Source: a bacterium
GTDB taxonomy: Bacteria > CSSED10-310 > JAJRTK01
Length of the DNA stretch: 9,361 bases
Direction of reading: 5' to 3'
NCBI GenBank assembly: GCA_024278345.1
Contig: JAJRTK010000382.1
Location: 1-9,361 of the forward strand
Made by a program: the position numbers and the translations under genes. Shown here one piece after another: positions 322-6,840 of this stretch. Position 1 is the stretch's first letter; the number at the start of each line of letters is the position of its first letter. Below the pieces are notes generated by a model, which searched no databases, had not been told where the DNA came from, and was given only the letters and a program-made list of their open reading frames with translations.

Positions 322-1398
322 ATGCAACAATCCGGTGGCTCGAACCGCAGGCGTAAGGGAAAGAACAACAACCTTCCCAAGAAAGAAGACGTCCTGTATA
401 TTGGAATAGACCTGGGCACATACGAGAGCACCATCAGTGCTTCCAACGGTGTGCGGCATCGGATCGAAAGCCTCATTGGTTGGCCCAAGGATCTGGTTTC
501 GAGGAGGGTCGTTGGGAAAAAGGTGCTCTACGGGAGCGAATGCCACAAGCACCGGCTTTCCCTGGAGCTCTACCGGCCGTTGGAATGGGGCGTGCTCAAG
601 CGAGGTTCGGAGCGGATGGAGGAAGCTGCCCGAGCCTTGCTGAAACACCTTGTGGAAAAGGCCGAACCGGAGACTTGGCAAAAGGTCTACCTGGTGGTGG
701 GGACTCCGGCGGAGGCATCGAACTACCAGATCAGCGCCATCCGCGATTCTCTGGAGGGAGTCTCCGAAGCGGTGCTCATCGTCTCGGAGCCGTTTGCCGT
801 CGCCTATGGGATGGCCTATCTCAACAACGCGCTCATCATCGACATAGGCGCCGGGACGACCGACCTTTGTCTGATGCATGGAACCGTGCCCGACGCCGAA
901 GATCAGATGACCATCAACCAGGCTGGAGACTTCATCGACCAGCAGCTCATGCAGCTTCTTCAGGAACGGTATCCCGAGGCGAGCTTCAGCCAAAACATGT
1001 GCCGCCAGTATAAAGAGCGGAACGCCTTTATTGGCGATGCCACGGGACCTGTCAAGGTCACCATGCCGGTGTCGGGAGTTCCGGCGACCTTTGACATCAC
1101 GCGCCCCATGAAGCGTGCCTGCGAGTCGATCCTTCCCTACCTCAGTGAAGCGATCAAGGAAATGGTGGCTCGCTACGATCCCGAATTCCAGGAAGAGCTT
1201 CGCCATCACGTCGTTCTCGCTGGCGGAGGGAGCGCTATCCGTGGATTGGAGAGTTTCGTCAAGGAGGTCCTCAACGAGCTCGGAGGCGGCACGGTGGTCG
1301 CGGTGGACGATCCCAACTACGCCCTCGCCGATGGCGCGTTGGCCATCGCGCAAGATACGCCTCTCGAGGACTGGGACTCCCTGAGGGCCGACCGCTGA
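322..1398 (+). CDS. MamK-family actin-like ATPase
   Basis: A bacterial actin homologue expected to bind ATP and polymerise into cytoplasmic filaments. From ATG 322 it is 358 residues, close to MamK (about 347). A basic, probably disordered N-terminus (1-22) precedes the fold. Phosphate-1 motif is DLGT (30-33); the SEPF element carries E156, the expected catalytic glutamate; phosphate-2 is IIDIGAGTTD (172-181) with D174; the adenosine motif is AGGGS (300-304). The stretches GWPKD (53-57), GVL (90-92) and GTVPDAEDQ (187-195) match my memory of Magnetospirillum MamK much better than MreB, ParM or FtsA. No other magnetosome gene is in the window. Its TGA overlaps the next gene's ATG by one nucleotide, so it is coupled to the importer genes. 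The family call is firm; whether it organises organelles, the importer or something else is unknown. A divergent MreB-type role is the main alternative. Confidence 0.88.
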   Translation: MQQSGGSNRRRKGKNNNLPKKEDVLYIGIDLGTYESTISASNGVRHRIESLIGWPKDLVSRRVVGKKVLYGSECHKHRLSLELYRPLEWGVLKRGSERMEEAARALLKHLVEKAEPETWQKVYLVVGTPAEASNYQISAIRDSLEGVSEAVLIVSEPFAVAYGMAYLNNALIIDIGAGTTDLCLMHGTVPDAEDQMTINQAGDFIDQQLMQLLQERYPEASFSQNMCRQYKERNAFIGDATGPVKVTMPVSGVPATFDITRPMKRACESILPYLSEAIKEMVARYDPEFQEELRHHVVLAGGGSAIRGLESFVKEVLNELGGGTVVAVDDPNYALADGALAIAQDTPLEDWDSLRADR

Positions 1399-2282
1399 TG
1401 CTTGGGGACGCTCGACCCTTGGCTGGCTTGGTCCTGGTGCTCTTCTCGCTGTCGGCTTTCGCGGGTGAAGGAGCGGGCGGCACCGATATGACCGGCCGGC
1501 AGGTGGCGGTCCCGGAACGGCCGACACGAATCGTGTCACTGCTGCCGGCCATCACGGAAACCCTCTTCGCAATTGGGGCCGGGCAGTTGGTGGTGGGCCG
1601 GACCAGCTACTGCCGATACCCGCCCGGAGTGCTGGAGATTCCAGTGGTTGGGGATATCGCGAACCCCGTGACGGAGGCTGTCCTTCGTCAGCGGCCCGAC
1701 CTGATCCTGGCCAGCGATTTCGGCGTGAACGCGGGTCCGCTGGAATCCCTGGAATCACTGGGCCTGCCGGTTCACCTCCTGGATTTCAGGTCCTATCCTT
1801 CTTCCCTGGAGGCGATGACCCGGATCGGGAGGATCGCGGGGGCCGAAAGCAAGACCGCCGAGCTGCTGAAAGGTATCCGGGCGGCGGAACAGGAGGTCCG
1901 GCACCGCGTGGAAGGACTCGGGCGGCCTCGGGTGCTCGTCACCATCATGCACGGACCGGTCTGGGTTGCCGGAAAGGAGACCTTTCTCCATCACCTTTTG
2001 ACCGTGGCCGGCGGAATCAACGTCGTGACCCGGCCGGGATACGGTCCCATGGAAACCGAGGCGATTCTGTTGGCCGCGCCCGACCTGGTTCTGGTGGCTG
2101 AGCATCCCGCTTCCTTGGAATCGGCCATGGATGCATGGCAAGCCCCGGAGTTCTCGGAGCTTCCAGCGCTGCGGAAAAGCCGTGTCCTGGCCTTGGACGC
2201 ACGGGTCACGGTACCGGGGCCCCGGATGCGCCAGGCCTTCTTCGACGTGCTGAAGGCGGTCCACCCCGAGATACTGCCGTGA
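1398..2282 (+). CDS. btuF: Periplasmic cobalamin-type ABC substrate-binding protein (BtuF-like)
   Basis: Substrate-capture component of a type II ABC importer, 294 residues. A Sec signal peptide spans about residues 1-22, with a hydrophobic core LVLVLF and likely cleavage after AFA; there is no lipobox cysteine, so the protein is probably soluble in the periplasm. The mature part has the two-lobed layout of the TroA/BtuF class: RIVSLLPAITETLFAIG (44-60), then GRTSYCRYPP (67-76), which parallels E. coli BtuF's SSYSDYPP, and RPDLILA (99-105). E93 in NPVTEAVL and E221 in METEAIL occupy the places of the glutamates that dock BtuF onto BtuC arginines. The lobes are joined by a long helix around 136-172. 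It starts one nucleotide inside the actin gene's stop and overlaps the permease gene by 4 nt. Cobalamin is the best guess; haem or a ferric chelate are the alternatives. Confidence 0.8.
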   Translation: MLGDARPLAGLVLVLFSLSAFAGEGAGGTDMTGRQVAVPERPTRIVSLLPAITETLFAIGAGQLVVGRTSYCRYPPGVLEIPVVGDIANPVTEAVLRQRPDLILASDFGVNAGPLESLESLGLPVHLLDFRSYPSSLEAMTRIGRIAGAESKTAELLKGIRAAEQEVRHRVEGLGRPRVLVTIMHGPVWVAGKETFLHHLLTVAGGINVVTRPGYGPMETEAILLAAPDLVLVAEHPASLESAMDAWQAPEFSELPALRKSRVLALDARVTVPGPRMRQAFFDVLKAVHPEILP

Positions 2283-3388
2283 AGCGGCCCGGTCGAACCG
2301 CCTGGTGGCTGGTTTTGGCGGTGGGTTGGGCGGGGCTTGGGCTCTCGCTCCTGGCGGCGATGGACATCGGCCTTCAACCCATCGCCCTTGTGGAAACGCT
2401 TCAATCCGGGTGGAAGGGTATAGCCCCGGCGGACCCCATCGCGGGCATCCTTGTGGATATCCGGCTCCGCCGGGCCCTGATGGCCGTCTGCGCGGGAGCG
2501 GCCCTAGCGCTGGCGGGCTGTAGTCTTCAAGCGCTTTTACGGAATCCTCTGGCGGATCCTTACGTGCTTGGGATCGCTGGCGGCGCCAGCTTGGGGGCGG
2601 TGGCGGTGATGGCTTCTCGTTCTCTTTTCGCGCGGTTCGGCACAGGGGAGCTGGACTGGCTTTGGGGGGTCCTGGGAAGCGAAGCAGCCTCTAATTGGAT
2701 GGTTCCAACGGGAAGCGGAATGGTCCTGGTGGGCGCCACCATTGGAGCATTCCTCTCCATTACCCTGGTCTACGCCATCGCCGGGGCGGGCGGCCGACTG
2801 GAGGTCCGCTCGATGATCCTGGCCGGAGTGGTGCTCCAGGTGCTTCTTGGAGCCGTGGTCTTGATCATCTGGACCCTGGCGGATCGGGCCGTGGTCAACG
2901 CCCACGTGCAGTGGCTCATCGGCCGAATCCCCGATCCTCCCAGCGTCCGTGTGATTCTTTTCGAAGCGGGACTTCTCAGCATCTGTTGGGTGGGCCTTCG
3001 TTCTTTGGCTCCATCCTTCAACGCGCTTGCTTCCGGTGAGGCCGACGCGGCAACCTTGGGCGTCGATGTTGAGAAGCTGAAGCGACGAACCTTCATCCTC
3101 TCTTCGCTCCTCACGGCGGGGGTCGTTTCGGTCTGCGGTCTCATTGGCTTCGTGGGCTTGGTGGTGCCCCACGCCGCCCGCCTTCTGGTGGGGCCGGATC
3201 ACCGGAGGTTGTTGACGGCTTCGGCCCTGGGCGGTGGGATCTTCCTGCTCTGGTGCGACACGCTGGCCCGTGCTTCCTTCCAGGGAATTGCCATGCCCGT
3301 TGGAGCTATCACGGCCCTTGTGGGCGGGCCACTTTTTCTTTGGCTGCTGGCGCGGGAGCGCCGATCCGGGCTCACGGAGAAACTCTAG
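2279..3388 (+). CDS. btuC: FecCD/BtuC-family ABC importer permease
   Basis: Membrane permease of the importer, 369 residues, predominantly hydrophobic with about ten membrane segments as in BtuC/FecCD. I chose GTG 2279, which forms a GTGA overlap with the binding-protein stop; the frame is open farther upstream (ATG 2135) but that part lies inside the previous gene and is not membrane-like. Family landmarks: RLRRALMA (62-69), LQALLRNPLADPYVLG (83-98), the coupling-helix segment GEADAATLGVD (253-263) that contacts the ATPase, GFVGLVVPHAAR (290-301), DTLAR (327-331) and the C-terminal PVGAITALVGGPLF (340-353). Unusual is a polar or aromatic stretch of roughly 35 residues (about 113-147, rich in W, G and charged residues) between two early membrane segments, where most relatives have a short loop. 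Substrate is inferred from the partner binding protein. Confidence 0.85.
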   Translation: MKRPGRTAWWLVLAVGWAGLGLSLLAAMDIGLQPIALVETLQSGWKGIAPADPIAGILVDIRLRRALMAVCAGAALALAGCSLQALLRNPLADPYVLGIAGGASLGAVAVMASRSLFARFGTGELDWLWGVLGSEAASNWMVPTGSGMVLVGATIGAFLSITLVYAIAGAGGRLEVRSMILAGVVLQVLLGAVVLIIWTLADRAVVNAHVQWLIGRIPDPPSVRVILFEAGLLSICWVGLRSLAPSFNALASGEADAATLGVDVEKLKRRTFILSSLLTAGVVSVCGLIGFVGLVVPHAARLLVGPDHRRLLTASALGGGIFLLWCDTLARASFQGIAMPVGAITALVGGPLFLWLLARERRSGLTEKL

Positions 3389-3389
3389 C

Positions 3390-4268
3390 ATGGCCGCAGC
3401 TGCCATGGAGCTTCAAGACGTACGGTTTGCCTACCGGTCCGGGCAGCCGATTCTGGATGGCGTCAGTTTCGGAATCGCCAAGGGGGAGGTGACAGCGCTG
3501 GTGGGTCCAAACGGGAGCGGTAAGACGACGCTGCTCAGGGCTATCTCCGGTTCCGTGAAACTGGATTCGGGGGCAATCCTCATCGATGGCTGCCACCTGG
3601 GCCGGCAAGGGCGGCGCGCACTGGCCAAGAAGGTCGCCGTGGTTCCTCAGCAGGCGGAATTTGCTTTCGACTACACCGTTGAAGAAGCTGTCTCAATGGG
3701 TAGAATCCCACACTTGGGCGCGTTGGGGATCGAAAGCGCCGCCGACCGGGATGCCGTGGCCAAGGCACTGGCGCAATCTGGGCTGGAACATCTTCGCCAT
3801 CGATCGGTCCACCGGCTGAGCGGTGGAGAGCTTCAGCTCGTTCTCATCGCTCGGGCCCTTGCTCAAGCCAGTCCCGTGATGCTTCTGGACGAACCGACAA
3901 GCTCCCTTGACCTGGGGCACGAACAGGCAGTGCTCCGGCTCTTGTCCAAGCTCAACGACGAACAAGGGCTGACGATCCTTTTGGTGACCCACGATCTGAA
4001 CCTGGCGGCCCGTGAAAGCCGGCGCGTTCTCTTGTTTAACCGGGGCCGACTCGCCGGTGACGGCCCGCCCGCTCAAGTCCTCACGGCAGACGCCATCCGG
4101 CAGGCCTACGGAGCTGACGTGGAGGTCTTGAGTCATCCACACGCTCCGGAATACCCCTTGATCCTGCCGGTCCATCGCTCGAGGGCTCCCTCTTCCACCG
4201 ACACTTCCAAGCGTCACCAGAGCCACCCGGGGGAATTGATCTCAAGCCGCCGCGGAGAAACATCGTGA
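3390..4268 (+). CDS. btuD: ABC importer ATPase, BtuD/FepC/HmuV class
   Basis: Cytoplasmic ATPase that powers the importer, 292 residues. ATG 3390 follows the permease stop by one nucleotide, with GGAG at 3376-3379 ten nucleotides upstream; ATG 3405 (residue 6) is a possible alternative. All ATPase motifs are intact: Walker A GPNGSGKTT (39-47), Q-loop around PQQ (86-88), signature LSGGE (143-147), Walker B VMLLDEP (163-169), D-loop SSLD (171-174) and H-loop THD (200-202). The order and sequence fit the vitamin B12/iron-chelate ATPases. After the core a tail of about 35 residues (258-292), rich in S, R, H and P and probably disordered, makes it longer than usual. The end overlaps the glycohydrolase gene by 4 nt. 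ATPase identity is certain; the substrate is inherited from its neighbours. Confidence 0.87.
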   Translation: MAAAAMELQDVRFAYRSGQPILDGVSFGIAKGEVTALVGPNGSGKTTLLRAISGSVKLDSGAILIDGCHLGRQGRRALAKKVAVVPQQAEFAFDYTVEEAVSMGRIPHLGALGIESAADRDAVAKALAQSGLEHLRHRSVHRLSGGELQLVLIARALAQASPVMLLDEPTSSLDLGHEQAVLRLLSKLNDEQGLTILLVTHDLNLAARESRRVLLFNRGRLAGDGPPAQVLTADAIRQAYGADVEVLSHPHAPEYPLILPVHRSRAPSSTDTSKRHQSHPGELISSRRGETS

Positions 4269-5317
4269 CCAAACCCTCAAAAAGCCGTCGTGACGCCCTT
4301 CTGGGGACGCTCTTGGGGACGGCCCTAGGAGACGCTCTCGGGCTGCCGGCGGAAGGCCTTTCCGCCAAGACTATCCAGAGAAGGTTTGGCCGAATCGACC
4401 GGTTCCGCCTCTTGGGAAAGTGGGGGTTTGTTTCCGATGATACCGAGCAGACCGCCTTGGTCGCCCAGAGCCTTCTCACTCTTTTCCCCGCCGGCGGCAA
4501 GCCAGATATCGAGGCCTGTCACCGGGCGTTTCGCCGAGCCATGAAAGGCTGGATCCTTCGGTTGCCCTTCGGAATAGGGTTTGGCACCCTTCGATCCTGC
4601 CTCAAGCTCCTTGTGGGGATGCGGAATTCTGGCGTCCCCAGCGCGGGAAACGGAGCGGCCATGCGGGCAGCCATCATCGGCGCGGCGATCCCCGATGATG
4701 GACAATTGCGGCTGGCCGTGGGAAGGCGGATCGCCGAAACGACTCACCGCGATCCCCGGGCCGTGGAAGGAGCTCTCTACGTGGCCGAGCTGGCGGCGCT
4801 CGCTCTGTCCGCCAAGCCGGACGCGGACCGGAGCGATCTGGGACGGCACGCCATGACGGTCGTGAGTCAAAAGCCGCTCCGAGAAGTCCTGCTGAAGAGC
4901 CAGGAGCTAGCCCGTGCCGGCGCCAGCTTGGAGGAAGCGGCCAAAACCCTTGGGACCAGTGGTTTCGTCATCCACAGCCTTCCTTTCGCCCTTTTTTGCT
5001 TTCTACAGTGGGGAGGCGACCCCGCTCGCTGCATCTCCGAAACGATCCGTGGCGGAGGAGATACCGATACCAACGCCGCCGTCGCAGGCGCCCTCTCCGG
5101 GGCTCTATGCGGAGAGAAGGCCCTTCCGCGGCACCTTGTTGAAAGCCTCTGCGGCGGCCCTTTCGGGCCCGCCCATCTCCGATCCCTTGCAGAGGCGCTT
5201 TGTGGCAAGAAAGCGGTGACGCCGCCAGGCTACTCCTGGATGGCGGCCTTACTTCGGAACTTGCTTCTCTATCCAGTGATTCTGGCCCACGGATTCCGGC
5301 GGATGCTTCCCTTCTAG
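4265..5317 (+). CDS. ADP-ribosylglycohydrolase (DraG/ARH) family protein
   Basis: Predicted binuclear metal (usually Mg2+) hydrolase of the DraG/ARH fold, which cleaves N- or O-glycosidic bonds to ADP-ribose or related ribosyl groups; 350 residues. GTG 4265 forms a GTGA overlap with the ATPase stop. Motifs appear in family order: GTLLGTALGDALGLPAE (14-30), the metal-binding SDDTEQT (57-63), GNGAAMR (128-134), THRDPRA (160-166) and the metal/catalytic GGDTDTNA (264-271). All key aspartates and threonines are present, so it is likely active. The last 29 residues (322-350) are hydrophobic with basic ends (RNLLLYPVILAHGFRR) and could form an amphipathic or membrane-associating helix. No ADP-ribosyltransferase is encoded in the window, so its target is unknown: protein ADP-ribosyl groups, a free nucleotide, or speculatively a cofactor-derived ribosyl compound brought in by the importer. 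Confidence 0.85.
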   Translation: MTKPSKSRRDALLGTLLGTALGDALGLPAEGLSAKTIQRRFGRIDRFRLLGKWGFVSDDTEQTALVAQSLLTLFPAGGKPDIEACHRAFRRAMKGWILRLPFGIGFGTLRSCLKLLVGMRNSGVPSAGNGAAMRAAIIGAAIPDDGQLRLAVGRRIAETTHRDPRAVEGALYVAELAALALSAKPDADRSDLGRHAMTVVSQKPLREVLLKSQELARAGASLEEAAKTLGTSGFVIHSLPFALFCFLQWGGDPARCISETIRGGGDTDTNAAVAGALSGALCGEKALPRHLVESLCGGPFGPAHLRSLAEALCGKKAVTPPGYSWMAALLRNLLLYPVILAHGFRRMLPF

Positions 5318-5387
5318 CAGGTGACCCGAAAGAGGCGAGCAGCGGTCGGCCGGATGGCCGCCGATGGGAGCGGACCTCAACCTGAAG

Positions 5388-5405
5388 AAGAAAAAGGATT
5401 TTCTT
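5388..5405. terminator. AT-rich hairpin, weak terminator candidate after the operon
   Basis: AAGAAAA (5388-5394) pairs perfectly with TTTTCTT (5399-5405) around an AGGA tetraloop, 71 nt beyond the glycohydrolase stop. A GC hairpin (5347-5360) lies just upstream. The descending arm is T-rich but is followed by GGCAG, not a T run, so intrinsic termination is only a possibility. Confidence 0.25.
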
Positions 5406-5485
5406 GGCAGAACACCCTAAATGCGACCGACCACCTGATTGTGTCGGGGCGCGGAAACCAAAAGTCCCTCCATGGCCCAGTGATT

Positions 5486-5505
5486 CTGGACGGAAGTATG
5501 TCCAG
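5486..5505. repeat. Short hairpin upstream of the zinc-finger gene
   Basis: CTGGAC (5486-5491) and GTCCAG (5500-5505) form a 6-bp perfect inverted repeat around an 8-nt loop, about 85 nt before the next start codon. The element CCAGTG also occurs at 5477-5482 and 5502-5507. It could be an operator or leader hairpin, with no direct support. Confidence 0.25.
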
Positions 5506-5590
5506 TGTGGAAGTTTGGTATTCTTGAGTTGGAGACCGACCTTGACACTGGCTATCAAGTCAATCAAACCTAATGATAGAGGTGAACGGA

Positions 5591-5914
5591 ATGACCTTGG
5601 CAACACACCAAGTGGTGACACCAAAGCTGCGAAGCTTTCTGAAGGAACGGCTGCCGACAACGGGTGCGGCCTGTGTGTTTTGCGGGGAAAAAACCCAGAA
5701 TCCGGCCGTCTGGCTGGCCCGGCCCACCGAAAGCGGAATCGTCTTCGAGGTCTGCTGCTGGATTTGCTCGCTGGAGCGATCGCCGGAGACACTGGTCCGG
5801 GAGGCACGGCAAGAGATCGCCCAGCGCCTGATTCCCCCCTTGCAGGTGGAGGACGAAAAGGAATGGAATCTACTGAGCCTTCACGACCTAAGCGCCTACC
5901 ACGTCGAAGGATAA
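5591..5914 (+). CDS. Small hypothetical protein with two CxxC pairs
   Basis: A 107-residue cytoplasmic protein I do not recognise. The start ATG 5591 is favoured because AGAGGTG (5578-5584) lies 6 nt upstream; an in-frame ATG at 5573 lacks such a site. Cysteines C28-x-x-C31 (ACVFCGE) and C56-x-x-C59 (CCWICSL, with an additional C55) are spaced about 25 residues apart, the pattern of a treble-clef or zinc-ribbon domain binding one Zn2+. The segment between them (residues 32-54) looks like beta-hairpin, and residues 60-82 are helical and charged. The acidic C-terminus ends in SAYHVEG. The gene overlaps the following membrane-protein gene by 52 nt, so the two are probably co-expressed. A redox or nucleic-acid-binding role is possible but not shown. 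Confidence 0.75.
   Translation: MTLATHQVVTPKLRSFLKERLPTTGAACVFCGEKTQNPAVWLARPTESGIVFEVCCWICSLERSPETLVREARQEIAQRLIPPLQVEDEKEWNLLSLHDLSAYHVEG
5848..5852 (+). promoter_or_regulatory. Internal ribosome-binding site fixing the membrane-protein start
   Basis: GGAGG lies inside the small cysteine-protein gene, 10 nt before ATG 5863 in a different frame; AAGGA also abuts the ATG. Neither ATG 5956 nor ATG 6061 has an equally strong site, although AAGGG (6050-6054) before 6061 is acceptable. This supports the upstream start and translational coupling. Confidence 0.5.
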
Positions 5915-6840
5915 GCAAGCTGCCCCGCGGCGTCACAGCCTGGGCGCGCCATGAAATGCCCGGCGCCGATGGAGGCCGGTCCGAGGAGGGGATTGATCTC
6001 CGCTGGATCTGGGTCCGGCTCTCGGATCGGGGCCGTCATTTAGGGGTTCAAGGGCACGGCATGCTGGCACGGCGTCTGGCGGGGAGTACCCAGTGGTGGG
6101 GATCTTTGCGAACCTTGTTGGCTCCCACGGCCCGGCGGCTGGGGCTTGGCTGCCTGGAGGCTGGTTTTTGGGTTCGGATAAAATCTGAACCCGCTCTGCT
6201 ACGGGGATGGGAGACGGTGAAACCGGCCTTGAAACGTACAGGGCGAGTGCTGGGAAAATCGGCGAAAAGCGCGGCAGGCAAGATGCCGCTCCGAGGGATC
6301 GCGGTCTCCTTCCTTCTCCTTCTTCTTGCATTTTGGCTCTTGGGTTGGGCAAACGAAAAGGCCCCTATGGACGGCCTTCCCTACGGCATTGGTTTCGCTC
6401 TTGGCCTCTTTGCATGGCTCGTTTTCTTTTGGTGGGGCATCGAGTTCCACGGGCATCGGTTCCACATCTGGGAAGATGTGGGAGTCTGCACGCTGCCCGT
6501 AGTCGTGGCAGCGCCCCTCATTTGCACGAGCCTTCTTGTCCTGGTCAATGCCGAGCTGGATAACTCCCCCGCGACCCACTACAAGACCCAGGTTCTGTCA
6601 ATCCTCGACTGGCCCTACCTGGAACGTGGGCAGAGAGCGGATCGGGCCAAGCTTCTTGTCCGTTCGTGGCGTGCCGAAAAACCCGACCTTGCGCTTGACT
6701 TCGACGTTTCGGGCTTCAAAGAGCTCAAGGCGAGCACCCCCGTGACGGTGACGACACGGGATGGCTTCCTGGGAATGGAGTATGTCTACGGCCCGCTGGA
6801 GCCCGCCTCGGCGCCACCGACGCGAAACCAACCGGAGTAG
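5863..6840 (+). CDS. Hypothetical membrane protein, three TM segments, basic N-terminus
   Basis: Unrecognised 325-residue protein from ATG 5863. Residues 1-30 are strongly basic (PKRLPRRR at 9-16) and residues up to about 140 are soluble and arginine/tryptophan-rich. Three membrane segments follow at about 146-163 (leucine-rich), 173-193 and 206-228, joined by very short loops; the turn EFHGHRFH (194-201) after the second contains three histidines. The remaining 97 residues form a soluble domain with beta-like segments and a charged stretch ERGQRADR (250-257), ending in a proline-rich tail. The frame is open much farther upstream, but that DNA lies in the intergenic spacer and the previous gene. 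Codons from 5914 on are strongly G/C in third position, so coding begins before the ATGs at 5956 and 6061, supporting the 5863 start. I cannot assign a function; DUF-type membrane protein is the honest label. Confidence 0.65.
   Translation: MESTEPSRPKRLPRRRISKLPRGVTAWARHEMPGADGGRSEEGIDLRWIWVRLSDRGRHLGVQGHGMLARRLAGSTQWWGSLRTLLAPTARRLGLGCLEAGFWVRIKSEPALLRGWETVKPALKRTGRVLGKSAKSAAGKMPLRGIAVSFLLLLLAFWLLGWANEKAPMDGLPYGIGFALGLFAWLVFFWWGIEFHGHRFHIWEDVGVCTLPVVVAAPLICTSLLVLVNAELDNSPATHYKTQVLSILDWPYLERGQRADRAKLLVRSWRAEKPDLALDFDVSGFKELKASTPVTVTTRDGFLGMEYVYGPLEPASAPPTRNQPE

Follow-up and report, generated by a model that had tools for sequence, protein, structure and literature searches.

The window analysed here, a stretch of 9,361 nucleotides, covers contig C314 from end to end. 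This contig belongs to a MAG of 6.06 Mb (G000), which comprises 550 contigs and is 87.9 % complete. An actin gene begins 322 bp from the contig end and is followed by transporter and glycohydrolase genes:

1 to 321, no strand: upstream stretch with no recognisable gene up to the contig end
322 to 1398, forward strand: MamK-branch actin of 358 aa, with a basic N-terminal tail of 21 residues followed by the actin fold
1398 to 2282, forward strand: BtuF-type periplasmic binding protein (Peripla_BP_2), the start of which overlaps the actin stop
2135 to 3388, forward strand: FecCD/BtuC-type permease, start codon uncertain
3234 to 4268, forward strand: BtuD/heme-type ABC ATPase, start codon uncertain
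4265 to 5317, forward strand: ADP-ribosylglycohydrolase family protein (PF03747)

ThiC is also encoded in the window, and two ORFs without family matches occur between positions 5318 and 6912, one at 5573 to 5914 and the other, a likely membrane protein, within 5404 to 6840. An earlier note on this DNA had described the neighbours of the actin as a nutrient importer and a glycohydrolase; the annotation agrees, and mam genes are likewise absent from the 9,361 bases of the window.

The actin gene and its product

The actin ORF starts with ATG and contains no internal stops, while its TGA stop codon (1396 to 1398) shares bases with the ATG of the btuF-type gene (TGATG), through which translation of the two genes is probably coupled. 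The product incorporates the actin motifs IDLGT, SEPF, DIGAGTTD and GGGS, in agreement with the earlier note, which had credited it with all actin ATPase motifs, and its Pfam match is MreB_Mbl/Actin. Against the NCBIfam MamK model (NF040964) it scores 380.4 bits (E 6.8e-114), which is below the curated cut-off of 400 bits, and it fails both the BeeR model (211.9 bits; cut-off 530) and the MreB model (77.5 bits; cut-off 293). MreB proper is encoded separately in the same genome, on contig C39. The best matches in a PDB sequence search were the MamK structures 5ljw, 5jyg and 5ljv (E ~1e-77), followed by BeeR (4e-40) and then MreB (3e-14). An AlphaFold2 model, for which the window protein and seven relatives served as input, has a mean pLDDT of 85.5, with low confidence for residues 1 to 21, which probably form a disordered, basic tail. 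Among solved structures, the MamK filament 5ljv matches this model best (Z 40.2 and 38 % identity, with an rmsd of 2.5 over 325 residues), and BeeR is the runner-up (Z 37.6). The window protein is a MamK-branch actin and not MreB, and its motifs and predicted fold suggest that it may form filaments. No relatives were found in viral contigs or plasmids, and an anti-phage library gave only a marginal match (E 1.6e-5).

In a maximum likelihood tree of 47 rows, which included MamK, MreB and BeeR sequences and from which the actin of G723 was left out, the MamK branch including the window actin is separated from BeeR at 94/96 and from MreB at 100/100. The resemblance to MamK rather than MreB claimed in the earlier note thus holds in the tree as well as in the model scores, the PDB search and the modelled structure. 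Together with nine actins encoded next to an amidase gene (see below), the window actin forms an exclusive clade (100/99 support), within which it groups with those of G003, G130 and G267 (99/94). None of the magnetosome-linked MamKs included in the tree falls within this clade. They are scattered in several places around it and the deep branches are moderately supported, and no direction of recruitment, from magnetosomes to the cell wall or the reverse, is therefore claimed.

Amidase genes paired with MamK-branch actins

MamK-branch actins are encoded in 12/386 genomes representing mostly one genome per bacterial family sampled, and in 16/395 genomes of the phylum that includes the Geobacteraceae. 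The assemblies in these sets are mostly fragmented, many are incomplete and they are probably metagenomic. Gene context was read for twenty of the actins. Directly upstream of the actin, a protein with an Amidase_3 domain is encoded in seven genomes (G003, G095, G130, G136, G267, G298 and G583), and a search with a profile (A1) built from these seven amidases identified the same gene in the same place in G160 and G365. A tenth pair occurs in G723, where the contig end cuts the actin gene; this actin shares 51.7 % identity with that of the window over 207 residues. The amidase and actin genes lie in this order on the same strand in nine clade members and mostly overlap or are within ~100 bp of one another, with a gap of up to 257 bp in G267. 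The two genes are thus adjacent in ten genomes and apart in one, that of the window, where they occur on different contigs. The amidase of G000 (C2:11398-12495; 365 aa) is encoded inside a 26.9-kb contig, unlinked to the actin, and the clade amidases match positions 1 to 321 of the window at chance level only. Following the grouping used in the genome collection itself, the adjacent pairs span at least three phyla, namely those of G000 and G003, of G130 and G267 (the only two genomes of their phylum in the collection) and of G583 and G723.

The distribution of the amidase follows that of the actin. Full-length copies, taken as those with a match that begins no later than position 11 of the profile, were found in 9/386 genomes at a score limit of E 1e-70, which weaker copies of full length may have escaped; all nine are among the twelve with a MamK-branch actin (hypergeometric 5e-16). 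When restricted to genomes that played no part in building the profile, the co-occurrence is 3/3 (hypergeometric 2e-6). In the set of 395 genomes the two top amidase matches (515 and 345 bits; next match 299) both adjoin a MamK-branch actin, G723 being the independent one of the two, since G583 had helped to build the profile. These observations establish the genetic pairing of MamK-branch actin with amidase, and the adjacency over at least three phyla together with the matching presence pattern argues for a functional link. A mirror-tree correlation between actin and amidase identities (r 0.86) was discarded as evidence of pairing and taken to reflect shared inheritance only. It is not specific, because in six genomes ordinary amidases correlate with the actin nearly as well (0.75 versus 0.81). 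Nor did sequence identities point to one and the same pair as the nearest to the actin and amidase of G000. A DUF4384/DUF4214 gene beside the actin of G003 was likewise rejected as a partner, as the gene maps show no equivalent next to any of the other actins.

All eleven amidases, of 336 to 426 aa, share a layout in which a basic tail of 39 to 82 residues leads into one hydrophobic segment, which a linker connects to the catalytic domain; the seven that were scanned gave the Amidase_3 domain at E 1e-39 to 1e-46. From hydropathy and charge, on which the topology is based, the basic tail is predicted to lie in the cytosol and the N-acetylmuramoyl-L-alanine amidase domain in the periplasm, with a single transmembrane helix between them. 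All three zinc-binding/catalytic motifs are kept in ten of the eleven, including the G000 copy, while the G723 amidase has the first two and a variant of the third. The Amidase_3 catalytic domain is shared with the E. coli-type amidases AmiA, AmiB and AmiC; the linked amidases, however, differ from these in the basic cytosolic tail and internal transmembrane segment, and the scores of the three that were scanned do not come near the AmiA/B/C cut-offs. The majority of the linked amidases have fewer residues than the ordinary amidases used for comparison. In most of the latter the tails are shorter. A tail motif ([KR]xx[ILM]...xNL), defined after the sequences had been inspected, is present in 11/11 amidases of the linked type, 0/17 ordinary amidases and 0.17 % of shuffled tails. 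The amidase tree unites the linked amidases with the G000 copy in one group (98/98), apart from the seventeen ordinary amidases. The subgroups match those of the actin tree, the G000 copy being assigned to the group as a whole.

Different neighbours were observed for other MamK-branch actins. Those at L099 and L104 (G446 and G408) and at L101 (G395) are located downstream of genes for coiled-coil proteins of 344 to 663 aa, while tandem pairs of MamK-branch actins occur at L095, L096 and L098 (G536, G692 and G586) and in G631. A second, divergent MamK is encoded in the Geobacteraceae genome G065 (L009:686-1759), with DIGDEAVD in the phosphate-binding motif where its neighbours have DIGGGTVD.

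A possible role at the cell wall

We consider it fairly probable, on the strength of gene pairing and protein sequence, that actin and amidase form a functional system in which the filament would position or control a membrane-anchored wall hydrolase. The MamK-branch actin would assemble into ATP-dependent, MamK-like filaments in the cytosol, on which the cytosolic tail of the amidase may dock via its short motif. The filament could then place or gate amidase activity across the membrane, with daughter-cell separation or local wall remodelling as the potential outcome. That the pair represents an undescribed two-gene system, spread over at least three phyla, whose cytosolic filament directs the cleavage of the wall via the tail of the amidase, is put at slightly better than an even chance. 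A search of open-access papers found none linking a MamK-type actin with an amidase. The closest known way of working is that of Bacillus subtilis MreBH, which directs the autolysin LytE, a D,L-endopeptidase (PMC7478892). There too a bacterial actin directs a wall hydrolase, but the partners are an MreB and an endopeptidase, whereas here a MamK-branch actin occurs with a transmembrane amidase, the genes being adjacent in the other clade genomes.

An unlikely alternative, though one with some claim to attention, is a filament with a general structural or scaffolding role, comparable to Bbp or BeeR, in which case the amidase would be merely a co-inherited envelope neighbour. MamK relatives do occur in bacteria without magnetosomes. 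BeeR (PDB 8r2n), which polymerises and is found in Verrucomicrobiota without magnetosomes (PMC11929497), shares with the window actin an apparently non-magnetotactic host, the actin fold, in which it ranks second, and a disordered N-terminal tail, while Bbp ('big bacteria protein') is similarly a MamK-related actin of bacteria without magnetosomes (PMC10580974). Neither protein has a known function. However, an amidase partner was found for neither in these two papers, and the Bbp gene cluster is described as containing a hypothetical and a Kelch-like protein and no amidase, although the window actin could itself prove to be a Bbp. Furthermore, the window actin reaches only 212 bits on the BeeR model, BeeR falls outside the MamK-branch rows of the tree, and co-inheritance as a mere neighbour has to be set against an adjacency that persists across at least three phyla, along with the matching presence pattern.

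The pair may also work in the opposite sense, the amidase serving to anchor the filament at the membrane or to nucleate it, with wall cutting as a secondary activity. The short motif conserved in the tail would suit such a function, and in magnetotactic bacteria the magnetosome membranes are tethered to MamK by adapter proteins (PMC10653835), but the amidases examined have retained their catalytic motifs, a sign of selection for enzyme activity that leaves this arrangement quite improbable.

The earlier note had suggested that a MamK-branch filament was recruited to a new task, such as positioning a membrane transporter or another compartment. The placement in the MamK branch, in a genome without detected magnetosome genes, is borne out, but the suggested tasks are not, as the neighbours are not conserved and the companion of the clade is a transmembrane peptidoglycan amidase. 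That the actin gene heads a btu operon and its filament positions a B12-type transporter or another compartment is very improbable: BtuF- or BtuC-like and glycohydrolase neighbours are absent at all other loci of the clade in the stretches read, and both were thus rejected as partners, despite the probable coupling of translation with btuF and a BtuCD/FecCD-type ABC transporter ~3 kb beyond the actins of the distant MamK-branch group G446/G408. ABC importers are not known to need a filament for transport.

Magnetosome genes and the MamK annotation

Since the window ends where its contig ends and the MAG is 88 % complete, its lack of mam genes says little by itself, and a genome-wide search was used in place of the DNA just outside it. 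This search covered the magnetochrome domain (PF18509) and the MamM model among the mam families. Neither a magnetochrome domain nor a MamB/MamM-type CDF transporter was found in G000 (best match to the MamM model 129 bits; cut-off 350), while the positive controls, magnetotactic Geobacteraceae and Omnitrophota genomes, did yield magnetosome genes when searched in this way. In G003 (93 % complete), which belongs to the same phylum but a different family, both a MamM-type CDF and an above-cut-off magnetochrome domain are absent, the single match to the latter being very weak (17.8 bits; cut-off 30.4). Its actin adjoins the rimP-nusA-infB operon, with no mam genes nearby. Above-cut-off magnetochrome domains are also absent from G583 and from seven further clade genomes of the 386-genome set (G095, G130, G136, G160, G267, G298 and G365), three of which are given as 100 % complete. 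Gene content in the 87.9 % complete genome thus does not identify the window actin as a magnetosomal MamK. The GC content of the window (0.61, versus 0.58 to 0.60 for other contigs of the genome) and the grouping of its actin with that of G003 fit correct binning, which they do not prove.

An ordinary magnetosomal MamK, the magnetosome cluster of which is missing from an incomplete assembly in 550 contigs with the gene at a contig end, is barely credible: Omnitrophota relatives do have mamK (L003 and L004) and their magnetosome genes on separate contigs, but this explanation has against it the searches in G000, G003 and the other clade genomes, with positive controls, and the separation of the clade from all magnetosome-linked MamKs. 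In these Omnitrophota, mamK is preceded by two small conserved proteins (L003:9020-9920 and L004:82-938). A further MamK-branch actin (L007:63-1112) occurs on a possibly mis-binned contig labelled as uncultured archaeon, in a genome without a magnetochrome domain.

The best explanation is that the clade of the window actin is not magnetosomal and is paired with a dedicated transmembrane amidase. Its members resemble MamK in motifs, actin branch and best sequence and fold match, and differ in this partner and, for the window, in a genome without detected magnetosome genes. The MamK cut-off runs through the clade, with the actin of G003 (413.5 bits) above it and that of the window below. It is passed at loci without magnetosome genes in G003, G130, G136, G160, G298, G536, G692, G586 and G446, with no above-cut-off magnetochrome domain in the eight that were searched, all but G692; G536 has the top score of the survey (494 bits). 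MamK is known as the filament of magnetosomes, an actin that aligns the magnetic crystals. An annotation as MamK, which proteins of the clade can trigger, is by itself no sign of magnetotaxis. The conserved enzyme partner provides a testable job for one group of non-magnetosomal MamK relatives, and the amidase-linked clade bears on the origin of magnetosome filaments. If the two-gene system is real, MamK-type filaments would serve a cell-wall task outside magnetosomes, and possibly an older one.
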